This document shows positions 8,288-15,297 of a stretch of 20,374 nt of DNA, piece after piece. The position numbers and the translations under genes were made by a program. Numbering within the stretch: position 1 is the first letter of the stretch; every line of letters begins with the position of its first letter. The DNA lies in the IMG/VR virus record IMGVR_UViG_3300009030_000028, positions 1 through 20,374 of that record, one strand, 5' to 3'. The notes beneath the pieces are model-generated. The model worked only from the letters and a program-made list of their open reading frames with translations. It ran no database searches and had not been told where the DNA came from. This stretch comes from a virus.

Positions 8288-8365
8288 CGCCTGGACACCT
8301 GTCCCGCCGTAACCGCAAAGCTAACCATTGTTGTGCGCGTGGACACGTGTCTGGGCGCTTATGCA

Positions 8366-10441: not shown

Positions 10442-10767
10442 GGATTGAGTCCCGGAAAATGGGCCTGGAATATGGACAGGGCACCCCACCCCACCCCGCG
10501 AGTTCGCCGTTGGGGCCCCCCCCCGCGCCCACCGGCCCCCAGCGGACACTTGTCCAGCCGCGATCGGCCGACGTCGGTCACCGGGTCGGGTCGGCGACGT
10601 CTCCGGACACGTGTCCAGACCCTAACATCGGTGGGTTCAAGGTGCTTTAAGCGCAATCGCTACGGGCGCTAGCGCCAAGGCCTATGCCATTACCTAACAA
10701 CCGGGTCGCCAGTCGGGTCGGCAGTCGGGTCGACGTCGGCCGTATCGGTGGACACGTCTCCAGCCGG
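10442..10767. other. Intergenic region with C-tract and palindromes
   Basis: No gene is seen here. It lies behind the stop of the second minus operon and in front of the promoter of the first. It contains a run of nine C (10517-10528 area, GGGGCCCCCCCCC), palindrome copies at 10544-10555 (one mismatch), 10605-10616 (exact) and 10750-10761 (one mismatch), and the perfect 12-bp palindrome GGCGCTAGCGCC at 10665-10676. It also has repeated GGGTCGGCAGTCGGGTCG-like sequence around 10700-10735. No U-tract terminator for the upstream operon is apparent. Confidence 0.6.
10605..10616. repeat. GGACACGTGTCC palindrome, exact copy
   Basis: Perfect 12-bp palindrome, one of seven exact copies in the window. 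One- and two-mismatch relatives start at 3977, 8293, 8341, 10544, 10750, 10813, 10876, 11410, 15788, 15931, 18963 and 19608. This copy is intergenic, upstream of the promoter at 10414-10441. Confidence 0.85.
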
Positions 10768-11463: not shown

Positions 11464-11826
11464 CTAGCCGTTGTCCCGCCATGGCATCGGTCCGTCTGAG
11501 TCGGCCGGAACGGTCGCGGACTGCGCTACCCACTGATCCCAACACCCTTGGCACAACTCGGCGCCGCTGTCCGGTAGCGGTCTGCCGCACCTGCAGTCGG
11601 CGGCCGGAGGATCGCCGTCAACGGACTCAGGCAGACCGGAGTGTACCGCGTCGAGTGTCCGATCCATATCCGCCAGGACCCGGTAGACGTCGTCGAGTCG
11701 ACCGTCTATAGCCGCCAACGTCGAGTCGATAGAGCGTACGGTCTGCTCCAGCGCGTCGAGTCTCCAGTCGAGACAATGATCGAGCGCACCCGCGATGAGC
11801 TTGATAACGAATGAACGAATAAACAT
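11464..11826 (-). CDS. Coiled-coil protein with C-terminal zinc-ribbon-like motif
   Basis: A 120-residue protein of unknown function. The N-terminus (MFIRSFVIKLIAGALDHCL) is hydrophobic and could be an amphipathic membrane anchor. It is followed by a heptad-like helix of about 45 residues (LDALEQTVRSIDSTLAAIDG, continuing to DRTLDAVHSGL) typical of a coiled coil. The C-terminal part has four cysteines, CRC and then CQGC 13 residues on (DCRCGRPLPDSGAELCQGCW), resembling a minimal zinc ribbon. It has a good start: AAGGGG lies about 10 bases before the ATG and just behind the stop of the VWA gene. The operon context suggests an accessory to the ATPase/VWA pair, for example an adaptor, but this is inference. 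Confidence 0.65.
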   Translation of the reverse strand: MFIRSFVIKLIAGALDHCLDWRLDALEQTVRSIDSTLAAIDGRLDDVYRVLADMDRTLDAVHSGLPESVDGDPPAADCRCGRPLPDSGAELCQGCWDQWVAQSATVPADSDGPMPWRDNG

Positions 11827-11838
11827 AGTGAATCCCCT

Positions 11839-13206
11839 TTAGAGTGTTTCGTCGGTCGGAACAATGACTGTCTTGCAATTCGGCCAGTCTGGAATCGTCG
11901 TATATGGCGTGCCGACTAAGCAATTGACAAGCCCCCAAATCACGGGCGCTTCAGGACACGTGTCCGGATAGATGCTTTGCATGTCGGAGAATGAAACGAT
12001 GGCGTCGACCTGATCACAATTGTCGGCGATCCAAGCGAACGCCGGAATATGACTTGTCCCACCACCGACGCGGCAGTCGGTCAGATCCGGACATTCGCCG
12101 TCCATCGGTTCCCACTGGAAAGAACGGACGACCCCCGTGTTGAAGTAAATCACCGCCAGTCGGGCAAACAGGCCCGACTCCACGCATTCCCGGACACATG
12201 CCAGCGCGTCGGCAATGTCACGCGGGTTCATCGACGACGAGACGTCGATCATGACCGCAACCGTACCCGCCATCGGCTCTGCAGGACCGTAGTCCGGACC
12301 GACGACCCCGATGGTATGAAACACGCATCGGTTCATCCTTGCATACGTCCAGTCGCGCTCCACGGCTTCCGTCAGATACTCCCGCAGCACTTCCCGCCAG
12401 TCGACGATCGGGGGGGTCCGGTCGGCTTCGAGCGCGTCGCGGATACTCGCCGGTATGAACGCGTCCGAGCGCCCGATGCAGGCTTCATACGCGTCGGCGA
12501 CCGACTGCTTAACGTCGGGCTCATCGTCGACCGGAGTGTCCTCCACGTCGCCCCATCCGGTCGGCGAGTCGTCTGGACACGTGTCCACGTCGGATCCATC
12601 GTCCGGATCACTGCCGCCGGTATCGGCGTCGCCACCGGAATCGGAATCCTCGGCGTCGGCGCTGTCGCTGTCTCCGGATCCGCTGTCGCTGTCGCTGTCG
12701 CTGTCGCCATCGTCGGCGCTGTCCACGTCGCCGCCATCGTCGTCGTCACCGGGATCATCGGCCGGAGACGTATCCGGGTCATCCGGGTCATCGGAGTCGA
12801 CAAAACGGTAATACCCTTCAGCAGACAGACCCGGAGGCGCTTCGATCGTCTCCGGATAAATGCCGTCTGCCGGAAGAACCCCGCCCGCGTCGCGGATAGT
12901 TTCGTTCACGGTCGCGTCACAAGCGATATTCCACTGTTTGCTCGGGCGCTTCCCGCGTCGACTGCCCAGCGTATGACCCTTTGCCACGTGATCCAACTCG
13001 TGAATCAGAAGCCCGTAGCACTCATCCGGAGACAACGTGTCAATGAACGCCGGGTTAAACCGGATCCGGTTTCCATCCGTGCAAGCAGTCGCGACCGACT
13101 TGTCGGACACCATGTCCAATCGCATAGCAATGATCGCGTAAAACGCCCATGTCGGATCGAGCAGCAGTCGCATCCGCGCCCGGGTCATAGCTTCAATCGC
13201 TGTCAT
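11839..13206 (-). CDS. Metallopeptidase-like/VWA protein (DUF2201 type, CobT-like layout)
   Basis: A 455-residue protein with three parts. Residues 1-135 resemble the DUF2201 putative metallopeptidase domain: the helix YGLLIHELDHVAKGH carries HExxH plus a further His (H69, E70, H73, H78), followed by WNIACDATVNETI. Residues 137-230 form a very acidic Asp/Ser linker (runs such as DSDSDSDSGSGDSDSADAED). Residues 315-455 form a von Willebrand A-like domain starting VAVMIDVSSSM, whose DVSSS (321-325) is the metal-ion-dependent adhesion motif, with a Thr in GGGTSHIPAF and an Asp in SFSDMQS as further ligands. The acidic linker before a VWA domain is the layout of CobT, partner of the AAA+ CobS in cobaltochelatase. 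The ATG overlaps the preceding stop (ATGA). It is likely a partner of the MoxR-type ATPase two genes upstream; the target is unknown. Confidence 0.85.
   Translation of the reverse strand: MTAIEAMTRARMRLLLDPTWAFYAIIAMRLDMVSDKSVATACTDGNRIRFNPAFIDTLSPDECYGLLIHELDHVAKGHTLGSRRGKRPSKQWNIACDATVNETIRDAGGVLPADGIYPETIEAPPGLSAEGYYRFVDSDDPDDPDTSPADDPGDDDDGGDVDSADDGDSDSDSDSGSGDSDSADAEDSDSGGDADTGGSDPDDGSDVDTCPDDSPTGWGDVEDTPVDDEPDVKQSVADAYEACIGRSDAFIPASIRDALEADRTPPIVDWREVLREYLTEAVERDWTYARMNRCVFHTIGVVGPDYGPAEPMAGTVAVMIDVSSSMNPRDIADALACVRECVESGLFARLAVIYFNTGVVRSFQWEPMDGECPDLTDCRVGGGTSHIPAFAWIADNCDQVDAIVSFSDMQSIYPDTCPEAPVIWGLVNCLVGTPYTTIPDWPNCKTVIVPTDETL
11954..11965. repeat. GGACACGTGTCC palindrome, exact copy
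   Basis: Exact copy inside the VWA gene, translated on the minus strand as Pro-Asp-Thr-Cys-Pro (IYPDTCPEAPV). Confidence 0.85.
12575..12586. repeat. GGACACGTGTCC palindrome, exact copy
   Basis: Exact copy inside the acidic-linker part of the VWA gene, again read as Asp-Thr-Cys-Pro (DVDTCPDDSP). Two copies giving the same tetrapeptide in unrelated parts of one protein suggest that the DNA sequence, not the peptide, is being kept. Confidence 0.85.
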
Positions 13207-14096
13207 GATCGAGCCCCTTTGCCGACTCCAGCGGCCTTGAGAACTAACGCCGTAGCCGCGTCCGTTTCCACGTCGGCGAGCGTATCGGTCAGATGCGTCA
13301 TCGACGTCTGCAGGATCGATTCATACTCAGTAATCCGGTCACGCAATGCCATCGACCGATCACGAATGACCCCTATGGCTTTCCCGGTCAATGTCGCCGG
13401 GTCGGCCAACATGCCACGCATCTCGGTTGCGTCCTTGCCTATCTCATGATCGATTGCAGAAGCGATAGACGCGAACGCAGCCGGGTCCGCAATCAACTGG
13501 AGACAATGCGTCTCCACCGACACGGCCGCAACTTGACACGCCGCAATCGCCTTATTCCATTGACCCAGCCGCGTCTCCGGTAGCCAGTAGATCGATCCGC
13601 GATCGCGCAACGGCTGGCCGAACAACTGCTCGACGCATAGCGCCAAGTATCGGGACACTTTGTTCCGGCCGAGTCGACCCGATTCCCGCTTGATAGCCCG
13701 GTGGAGATCGGACGCGATCGTAGAGCTATATCCAGCTACGGCCGCGCCCGTACTTCCGTCGGACCAAATCTGTACGTCGTCCACGTCGGTTGAACCCTTG
13801 ACCGGATAAACACTGGCGATCGTCGGGTAGTCGTTCTTATCGACTCCAGCCAACTCCCGGACAGCGCAGACCCCATGGCGTCGGCCCTTGATTGGCCGGA
13901 TAAGGATCCCGGACCCGGAGAATGACGACTGCATAGCAGACCGGTAAACCGACCCCCACTGTCGCCGAGCCGGAACACAAGCGCCGAACCCAGCGCGCTT
14001 AGCTTCAGCGAACAACGCGTCATAGTCCGCGTCGCCGACTGTCCAATAGACCAAGTATCCTGCAATCTTGACATTCGTCGGTTTGGGCGCTGTCAC
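13203..14096 (-). CDS. Unknown partner protein between MoxR ATPase and VWA protein
   Basis: A 297-residue protein that I cannot assign with confidence; phage proteins of the DUF6744 type, which sit beside MoxR and VWA genes, are a possible comparison. The N-terminal half is a mixed fold (VKIAGYLVYWTVGDADYDAL, GFGACVPARRQWGSVYRSAM, then GSGILIRPIKGRRHGVCAV). The C-terminal half is helical: TASDLHRAI-type helices, RYLALCVEQLFGQPL, and a long terminal coiled-coil-like stretch (SMALRDRITEYESILQTSMT then a helix with LADVETDAATALVLKAAGVG). The frame is open upstream to 14225, but the start is placed at the GTG at 14096 because it overlaps the ATPase stop (GTGA). The stop overlaps the VWA ATG, so the three genes are translationally linked and probably act together. 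It may be an adaptor or substrate (inference). Confidence 0.7.
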   Translation of the reverse strand: MTAPKPTNVKIAGYLVYWTVGDADYDALFAEAKRAGFGACVPARRQWGSVYRSAMQSSFSGSGILIRPIKGRRHGVCAVRELAGVDKNDYPTIASVYPVKGSTDVDDVQIWSDGSTGAAVAGYSSTIASDLHRAIKRESGRLGRNKVSRYLALCVEQLFGQPLRDRGSIYWLPETRLGQWNKAIAACQVAAVSVETHCLQLIADPAAFASIASAIDHEIGKDATEMRGMLADPATLTGKAIGVIRDRSMALRDRITEYESILQTSMTHLTDTLADVETDAATALVLKAAGVGKGARS

Positions 14097-15244
14097 GATG
14101 CGCCGCCTTTGCCCGACGTCTTGGCACTCGCGGCAGTCGCGTCGATGATAATGTCGCGGTATCGCGTCATGAAATCGCGACCGGTCGCCGACTGGAGAAT
14201 TGTCCCGTCCGTCGCGCCGACGCACTGGATCAGGATAAAGACTTTGTATTCCTCCTTTTTGAATCGGTCAGCGTAGACCAATGCGGGCTCTGCCTGATCG
14301 GCCGGTAGTCCCTTGACCGCGTCGCCGATGAGCGCCGACATGGCGAAGCACGCGCCGGGCTCAGCGTCGGTCGGCACGTCCACGCCAGTCGGATCCGCTT
14401 GCACGTCTGCCCAACTCGGCAAGCCGGAATAAACTCGGCGATGCGCCCAGTAAGACGCAGCCACGCCCGACCCGACAAGCCCCTCGATTGCAGCCAACTG
14501 TCGCGCCGAGTTTCCATAGGCGCCCATGGCACTGGACACGTATTCCCATGAGCGCGGACACGCGAACGGCTCATCGGGCTGGGTCGGGTCGAACGTCTGG
14601 AAATGCTCCGGTTTCCATTGAAGATACGATCGGCAAGACGCGTCGACACCATTCGCGAGCGCCCAATCTTGCCATTCGGATAAGCGAGACGTGACCGAAT
14701 ACCGAATGACGCGCGACCCCAACGCGGTATGCAGGTTCACACTTCCCGCCTTATCGGCGGCCCGGTTTCCGGCCGCGATCATGACGACCCGGTTGCCGAG
14801 TCGGGTCCGCTTCAACTGTCGATCCCGGAACAATTGTGTGAGGCAGTTTTGGATCGCGTTCGGGCACTGGCCTATTTCGTCAAACAGGATCCCGATGCGC
14901 GCGCTGTCATCGGTCGGGATCCAGTCGGGCGAATGATTCACCATGATCAGTCGACCGTCGTCGTCCTTGGATGGTATGTCCCACCCGCCCAGATCCGACG
15001 GCTGAGAGTCGGACGCGCGAAACGTATACCACGCGTCGCAGACCTCATCGAGCGCCGATTCAATCGTCGCAGACTTCCCCTCGCCGGGAGGCCCCATGAA
15101 GCACGGGACAGGGAAGCGCCGCGCGGCTGCATACCCGCGCTTCCGGTCATCCCCCTCGGCGTCGACTGCCGCCCACAGGGCCGCGCAGTGTTCCTTGACA
15201 ATAATCCCCATGTCCCGATTACCGATACTGCTGAGTGTCGCCAT
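14093..15244 (-). CDS. MoxR/CobS-type AAA+ ATPase
   Basis: A 383-residue AAA+ ATPase, first gene of the second minus operon. Visible motifs are Walker A GPPGEGKS (51-58), Walker B ILFDEIG (119-125) followed by CPNAIQNCLTQLF as in MoxR proteins, sensor 1 VVMIAAGN (153-160), and LHTALGSRVIRYSV around 171-184, whose Arg is a likely finger. MoxR ATPases use ATP to remodel partner proteins and commonly pair with VWA proteins, which here follow one gene later. An in-frame ATG lies at 15280, but the ATG at 15244 is chosen because GGAGA sits 8 bases upstream and the other start has none. An exact palindrome copy (15286-15297) lies 42 bases upstream of the start, in the expected promoter region. The GTGA junction couples it to the next gene. 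Confidence 0.88.
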   Translation of the reverse strand: MATLSSIGNRDMGIIVKEHCAALWAAVDAEGDDRKRGYAAARRFPVPCFMGPPGEGKSATIESALDEVCDAWYTFRASDSQPSDLGGWDIPSKDDDGRLIMVNHSPDWIPTDDSARIGILFDEIGQCPNAIQNCLTQLFRDRQLKRTRLGNRVVMIAAGNRAADKAGSVNLHTALGSRVIRYSVTSRLSEWQDWALANGVDASCRSYLQWKPEHFQTFDPTQPDEPFACPRSWEYVSSAMGAYGNSARQLAAIEGLVGSGVAASYWAHRRVYSGLPSWADVQADPTGVDVPTDAEPGACFAMSALIGDAVKGLPADQAEPALVYADRFKKEEYKVFILIQCVGATDGTILQSATGRDFMTRYRDIIIDATAASAKTSGKGGAS

Positions 15245-15285
15245 GGCGTTCGTCTCCGATAGTGTTTCCCGCAGGTTCATCCGTT

Positions 15286-15297
15286 GGACACGTGTCC
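15286..15297. repeat. GGACACGTGTCC palindrome, exact copy, MoxR promoter region
   Basis: Exact copy 42 bases upstream of the preferred MoxR start and 6 bases upstream of the alternative ATG at 15280. This is the best-placed copy for acting as an operator. Confidence 0.85.

Follow-up and report, generated by a model that had tools for sequence, protein, structure and literature searches.

The window analysed here is the entire viral record IMGVR_UViG_3300009030_000028 of IMG/VR (20,374 bp, classed as linear, 62% G+C), which is possibly a fragment of a genome. The virus is a small uncultured tailed phage, a podovirus. Its tail, terminase, and head-tail adaptor genes lie on the plus strand in the left half of the window. 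A block of minus-strand genes spans from 15.3 kb down to 8.4 kb and is followed by a plus-strand block with a helix-turn-helix (HTH) gene, a RecE-like exonuclease, and RecT. The minus-strand block opens, on the strand opposite to the packaging and tail genes, with an operon for a predicted MoxR-type AAA+ ATPase, an orphan protein, and a protein that joins a putative zinc metallopeptidase to a von Willebrand factor A (VWA) domain. The genes of the operon are as follows.

14093 to 15244, minus strand: MoxR/midasin-type AAA+ ATPase, 383 amino acids (PHROG_1297, E 3e-65; profile matches to midasin and CbbQ; AAA+ motifs invariant)
13203 to 14096, minus strand: orphan middle protein P0004, 297 amino acids, GTG start (4-nt overlaps on both sides, Shine-Dalgarno sequence, coding signal)
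11839 to 13206, minus strand: DUF2201 protein, 455 amino acids, with a predicted N-terminal zincin metallopeptidase domain, a low-complexity linker, and a C-terminal VWA domain (DUF2201_N, DUF2201, PHROG_1314)
11464 to 11826, minus strand: fourth gene, 120 amino acids (12 nt past the DUF2201 stop, Shine-Dalgarno sequence, coding signal)

A preliminary description of this DNA had placed the first three genes in one overlapping operon, and the coordinates confirm it. The ATPase gene ends with TGA at 14095-14093 and the middle gene begins with GTG at 14096, which gives the four-base overlap GTGA. At the next junction, the middle gene runs to 13203 and the DUF2201 gene starts with ATG at 13206, so that they share the four bases ATGA. 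The middle, DUF2201, and fourth genes share an AAGG Shine-Dalgarno sequence with 9-nt spacing, and that of the fourth gene overlaps the DUF2201 stop. The ATPase start at 15244, as given earlier, is borne out by a GGAG at 9 nt; an in-frame alternative at 15280 (395 amino acids) has no usable Shine-Dalgarno sequence, and 15244 is the best start. The length of the open reading frames alone is within chance at this G+C content, as the longest stop-free run in shuffled sequences has a mean of 267 and a maximum of 478 codons. Despite this uninformative length, the genes are real, because the ATPase and the DUF2201 protein match PHROG and Pfam families and the codon-usage score, with the phage's other genes as the reference, singles out the gene frame as the only positive one in each of the four genes, and the orphan middle gene is no exception.

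The ATPase matched PHROG_1297 over profile positions 24-353 of 356 (unrounded E 2.7e-65), and there were 774 matches to it among phage records. When the family profile was compared with the PDB, midasin was the best match (E 8e-22) and CbbQ/NirQ/NorQ came with an E of 9e-6. Because midasin and then CbbQ/NorQ are the nearest solved structures, the protein likely belongs with the MoxR-type AAA+ ATPases. The Walker A (GPPGEGKS, residue 51, numbered from 15244), Walker B (ILFDE, 119), sensor 1 (AAGN, 157), arginine finger (SR, 177), and sensor 2 (PRSW, 230) motifs are all present and invariant among five relatives, so the full AAA+ motif set first noticed in this gene stands.

The third protein of the operon showed matches in Pfam to DUF2201_N (E 2e-35) and the DUF2201 VWA domain (E 3e-10), both above the cut-offs, and to PHROG_1314 (E 2e-55). 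It had 407 matches among phage records. Three of its features are placed as follows.

12988 to 13002, minus strand: HELDH zinc-binding motif, residues 69-73 (invariant in alignments of five to eight relatives)
12511 to 12801, minus strand: Asp/Ser-rich low-complexity linker, residues 136-232 (39 Asp and 15 Ser of 97, by composition)
12232 to 12246, minus strand: metal ion-dependent adhesion site (MIDAS) motif DVSSS, residues 321-325, together with T384 and D408 (invariant in relatives)

The motifs of the protein are HELDHVAKGH (residue 69), WNIACD (92), DVSSS (321), GGGT (381), and FSD (406). In alignments with five to eight distant relatives, H69, E70, H73, H78, N93, and D97 are invariant, as are D321, S323, S325, T384, and D408 of the VWA domain, and the MIDAS is complete. 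The proposed arrangement of HExxH...H, Asp/Ser linker, and VWA domain with DVSSS is confirmed, the trailing histidine being the conserved H78, and the N-terminal domain is a putative zinc metallopeptidase. The HExxH and Walker residues, whose loss in relatives had been named as evidence against the proposal, are kept in the aligned relatives. The acidic linker is present in the window protein but not conserved, since the linkers of relatives are Asp/Gly-rich, Pro/Gln/Gly-rich, or short. Because of this variable composition, acidity is no defining feature of the linker. The AlphaFold2 (AF2) model of the protein had a predicted local distance difference test (pLDDT) score of 64, with the VWA domain well modelled. 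A fold search with the VWA part only gave PDB matches at Z of about 12; the first Foldseek match was the midasin MIDAS domain, and NorD was also listed. The label 'HNH endonuclease' is attached to PHROG_1314 and to many phage entries in RefSeq, among them LUZ7, S6, and phage G. This label is probably wrong, because Pfam gives DUF2201 and no HNH model in the window protein and the relatives scanned.

RavA-ViaA, NorQD, and CbbQO resemble the window pair in combining a MoxR-clade ATPase with a VWA partner, whereas the sequence match is limited to the AAA+ and VWA folds. To our knowledge, the VWA partners in these systems have no HExxH domain. The closer likeness is to gp24/gp25 of phage N4 (PHROG_1297/PHROG_1314), which are the same two families in the same order and on the same strand, with the catalytic and MIDAS residues kept; the window ATPase matches gp24 at 28%. 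N4 differs in having no gene between the pair and a shorter protein, and the pair is core there but accessory in the window lineage. The two N4 genes are core genes of the N4-like family (Schitoviridae), gp25 by one of three methods and gp24 by at least two (PMC7650795). A pair of MoxR and metallopeptidase-VWA proteins was also described in jumbo phages in 2021 and proposed to be a chaperone/peptidase (PMC7824862). In the group 2.2 jumbo phages of that study, a MoxR-type ATPase adjoins a VWA protein with an N-terminal metallopeptidase, as in the window; they were described as a pair, whereas the window is a small podovirus with a third, orphan gene. The PHROG_1297, PHROG_1314, and DUF2201_N matches support the suggested MoxR/VWA chaperone-type pair with the metallopeptidase fused to the VWA domain. 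The combination is not an unrecognised one, as had been thought: it corresponds to N4 gp24/gp25 (PMC7650795) and to the published jumbo-phage pair (PMC7824862), and earlier papers already describe the pair, the fusion of peptidase and VWA domain, and the idea of a chaperone. By its sequence, the window operon is a divergent member of this known module. What is new here is the variable middle slot, the accessory status in the window lineage, and the occurrence on plasmids.

The two partners lie within about 5 kb of each other in 21 of 21 loci read that bear the AAA or DUF2201 gene, and all nine loci fetched through the ATPase alone also carry DUF2201. Carriers include N4, LUZ7, Erwinia S6, Vequintavirus, cyanophage S-TIM54, jumbo phages, and Bacillus phage G. 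The module is also carried by conjugative plasmids, elements without virions. Both genes of the pair are missing from all eight of the phage genomes (39-58 kb) whose terminases are closest to that of the window, so the module is accessory in the window lineage and homologous packaging works without it. In the VWA tree, the window DUF2201 protein is deep and long-branched and falls outside the Schitoviridae clade with 100/98 support; the ATPase tree gave no firm placement of the window protein. No conserved stretch suited to scanning emerged from profile alignments of five or of eight members, and a search of genome contigs with a two-sequence profile gave no match. In most carriers, the module is near replication or nucleotide genes, such as helicase/DNA polymerase (LUZ7), dCTP deaminase (N4, X2_28B), rIIA/rIIB/helicase (Vequintavirus), DNA polymerase (CRP-7, Phosso), and primase-helicase (L021). 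A RecE/RecT link, prompted by the recombination genes of the window, was dropped, as RecT was found in only 1 of 15 carriers or relatives checked.

No relative of the middle protein P0004 was recovered from IMG/VR or from 50,697 phage records, and a single-protein IMG/VR scan with P0002 likewise gave none. It had no match above cut-off in Pfam, NCBIfam, or PADLOC. The family DUF6744, suggested earlier, matched below the cut-off (E 0.04, 13.3 bits against 27), and DUF6744 was absent from seven records. In several distant carriers, the same slot is occupied by DUF3150. The order AAA-DUF3150-DUF2201 was found in IMG/VR contigs L009, L010, L020, and L023, cyanophage MinM2, a Simplicispira plasmid, and Burkholderia plasmid pBVIE02. 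L010 shares with the window the stop/start overlaps and a 297-residue middle protein, while MinM2 and the Simplicispira plasmid have small genes between the members of the trio. In the IMG/VR contigs L024/L025, the DUF3150 gene is about 480 bp downstream of an AAA-DUF2201 pair, which is another order of the three families. The trios have the same gene order as the window, but their middle protein is not detectably related to P0004: the hhalign probability against DUF3150 proteins was 0.1-0.2, the same as for shuffled sequence, and the comparison with the fetched loci was no better than shuffled sequence. DUF3150 and DUF6744 were not named in any paper found in our literature search. The triad expected as a conserved unit is thus not borne out. 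The slot holds DUF3150, an unrelated protein, or nothing while the pair is constant, so the pair is fixed and the third slot variable. The third slot is probably filled by lineage-specific helpers that supply specificity.

With the gene order, the families, and the intact ATPase, zinc-site, and MIDAS residues established, we propose that the operon makes an N4 gp24/gp25-type ATP-driven remodelling peptidase that works within infected cells on a protein of the host or of the phage. We give this reading a probability of about 60%. On the model of RavA-ViaA, CbbQO, NorQD, and midasin, we expect the ATPase to form a ring and the VWA domain to dock on the ring or present the target through its MIDAS metal site. 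ATP hydrolysis would remodel the target, which the zincin domain, brought in on its disordered tether, may clip. The genome context suggests that the machine works while the phage takes over the cell and replicates, with a host or phage protein rather than the virion as its target. Plasmid carriage and accessory presence fit action inside the cell better than action on the virion, and the module probably does its work in the cell rather than in the particle. Several points weigh against this proposal. The literature searched reports no activity, complex, or target for any member of the module. The predicted zincin domain lacks a close relative of solved structure; in sequence, M48 and the MJ1213 mini-gluzincin match it only weakly (E 0.005-0.03). 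The middle protein is read as a helper from its position only; its AF2 model, made without relatives, shows an alpha/beta N-terminus followed by long helices at a pLDDT of 43 and is of too low confidence to be used. In S-TIM54, the pair is among virion structural genes, which would suit assembly.

The middle gene may instead be a passenger without a part in the machine, which we consider somewhat unlikely. P0004 has no sequence relation to DUF3150, and many carriers, including N4, S6, S-TIM54, and LUZ7, have no middle gene or a small one. On the other hand, the four-base overlaps on both sides suggest translation coupling, and DUF3150 takes the same slot in distant carriers.

A narrower form of the proposed action inside the cell is counter-defence or host takeover, in which the machine would take apart a host protein, such as a defence complex met by both phages and conjugative plasmids. 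Carriage by both, the accessory status in the window lineage, and a variable third subunit that would suit changing targets are in its favour. However, a core gene of the whole N4-like family would be unusual for such a role, and PADLOC, whose library holds defence and not anti-defence proteins, gave no match; this form is tentative and has the smaller share of our belief. The ternary conflict systems centred on MoxR and VWA proteins also have a MoxR ATPase, a VWA protein, and a distinct third protein (PMC7159879), but neither their third components (VMAP, iSTAND, FtsH, beta-propeller) nor an effector domain was found in the window. More speculatively, phages and conjugative plasmids might share an ATP-driven peptidase with an exchangeable, target-setting third subunit, and this phage might have swapped the usual DUF3150 for an unrelated protein. 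The middle gene would then be a specificity cassette for disabling different host proteins, a scenario we hold to be doubtful.

The module could also be a virion assembly machine, in which a structural protein would be folded by the MoxR-VWA pair and trimmed by the peptidase, a role put forward for jumbo phages (PMC7824862). The MoxR-VWA pair of the archaeal virus ATV, which has no peptidase, is reported as needed for tail development in the work cited by PMC7824862 and PMC7911831, and the position of the S-TIM54 pair points the same way. Against this, plasmids carry the same ATPase/DUF3150/DUF2201 trio, the eight nearest-terminase phages build virions without the module, most phages have it in the early/replication region, and the window operon opposes the packaging and tail genes in strand. 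Virion maturation, one of the roles first suggested, is disfavoured as the general job of the module because the module is accessory in the lineage and present on plasmids, and we regard it as unlikely. CobS/CobT-like metal insertion into a macrocycle or enzyme is very improbable: AAA+ plus VWA with an acidic linker resembles CobST in outline and one ATPase relative weakly matches a porphyrin-biosynthesis PHROG (E 0.004), but Pfam and NCBIfam, searched at E 1, gave neither a CobS nor a CobT model for the window proteins, so that comparison fails, the acidic linker is not conserved, no cofactor genes are in the neighbourhoods seen, and, as far as we know, an HExxH domain is not a feature of CobT.

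A perfect palindrome lies upstream of the operon.

15286 to 15297, no strand assigned: perfect palindrome GGACACGTGTCC, 42 bp upstream of the ATPase start

Seven exact copies of GGACACGTGTCC are in the window (10605, 10939, 11954, 12575, 15286, 15544, and 15736), with eight further one-mismatch copies, making 15 matches at one mismatch or fewer against 0.09 expected. The copy at 15286 is a candidate operator for the operon, and the copies in general are candidate operator or stoperator-like sites, or a replication element. Related copies at 10750, 10813, 10876, and 10939 have an exact 63-bp spacing and lie inside or beside a gene end, whose 21-residue repeats keep only the motif-coding part. 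Outside the window, an array of the 63-bp motif was seen in a single viral contig; its repeats are coding and of GDVS type, and the part read shows no genes like those of the window. Other matches to the array came from Planctomycetaceae and Elusimicrobia. The IMG/VR contigs L006, L007, and L008 from other metagenomes comprise near-identical contigs (99.9%) and one 87% relative of the window virus; L007 reaches past the left end of the window, and none of the three covers the triad. A one-mismatch copy of the palindrome at 8341 is perfect in the 87%-identical contig.

The fourth protein of the operon has a hydrophobic N-terminus, a coiled-coil region, and CxC/CxxC pairs that are a possible zinc site, and it showed a sub-threshold match to the coiled-coil family DUF7310 (E 5e-5). 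Directly after the HTH gene, a tRNA-like element (16602-16701, plus strand) scored 46.9 bits with the Rfam tRNA model (cut-off 29) and was not called by ARAGORN. It has an anticodon-loop insert of about 33 nt with a perfect 8-bp hairpin, CCACGTCG-GGAAA-CGACGTGG, and a degenerate T arm. Within the 830 bp of non-coding DNA that precede the operon, at about 15595-15615, lies a sequence resembling a tRNA T arm, GGGTTCGAGTCCCC, which might be left over from a tRNA attachment site.

N4 gp24 and gp25 belong to the core gene set of a large phage family and have no known function, and the comparison made here makes their role testable. The third slot points to a possible seat of specificity. Phage N4 in E. 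coli K-12 is a ready test system.

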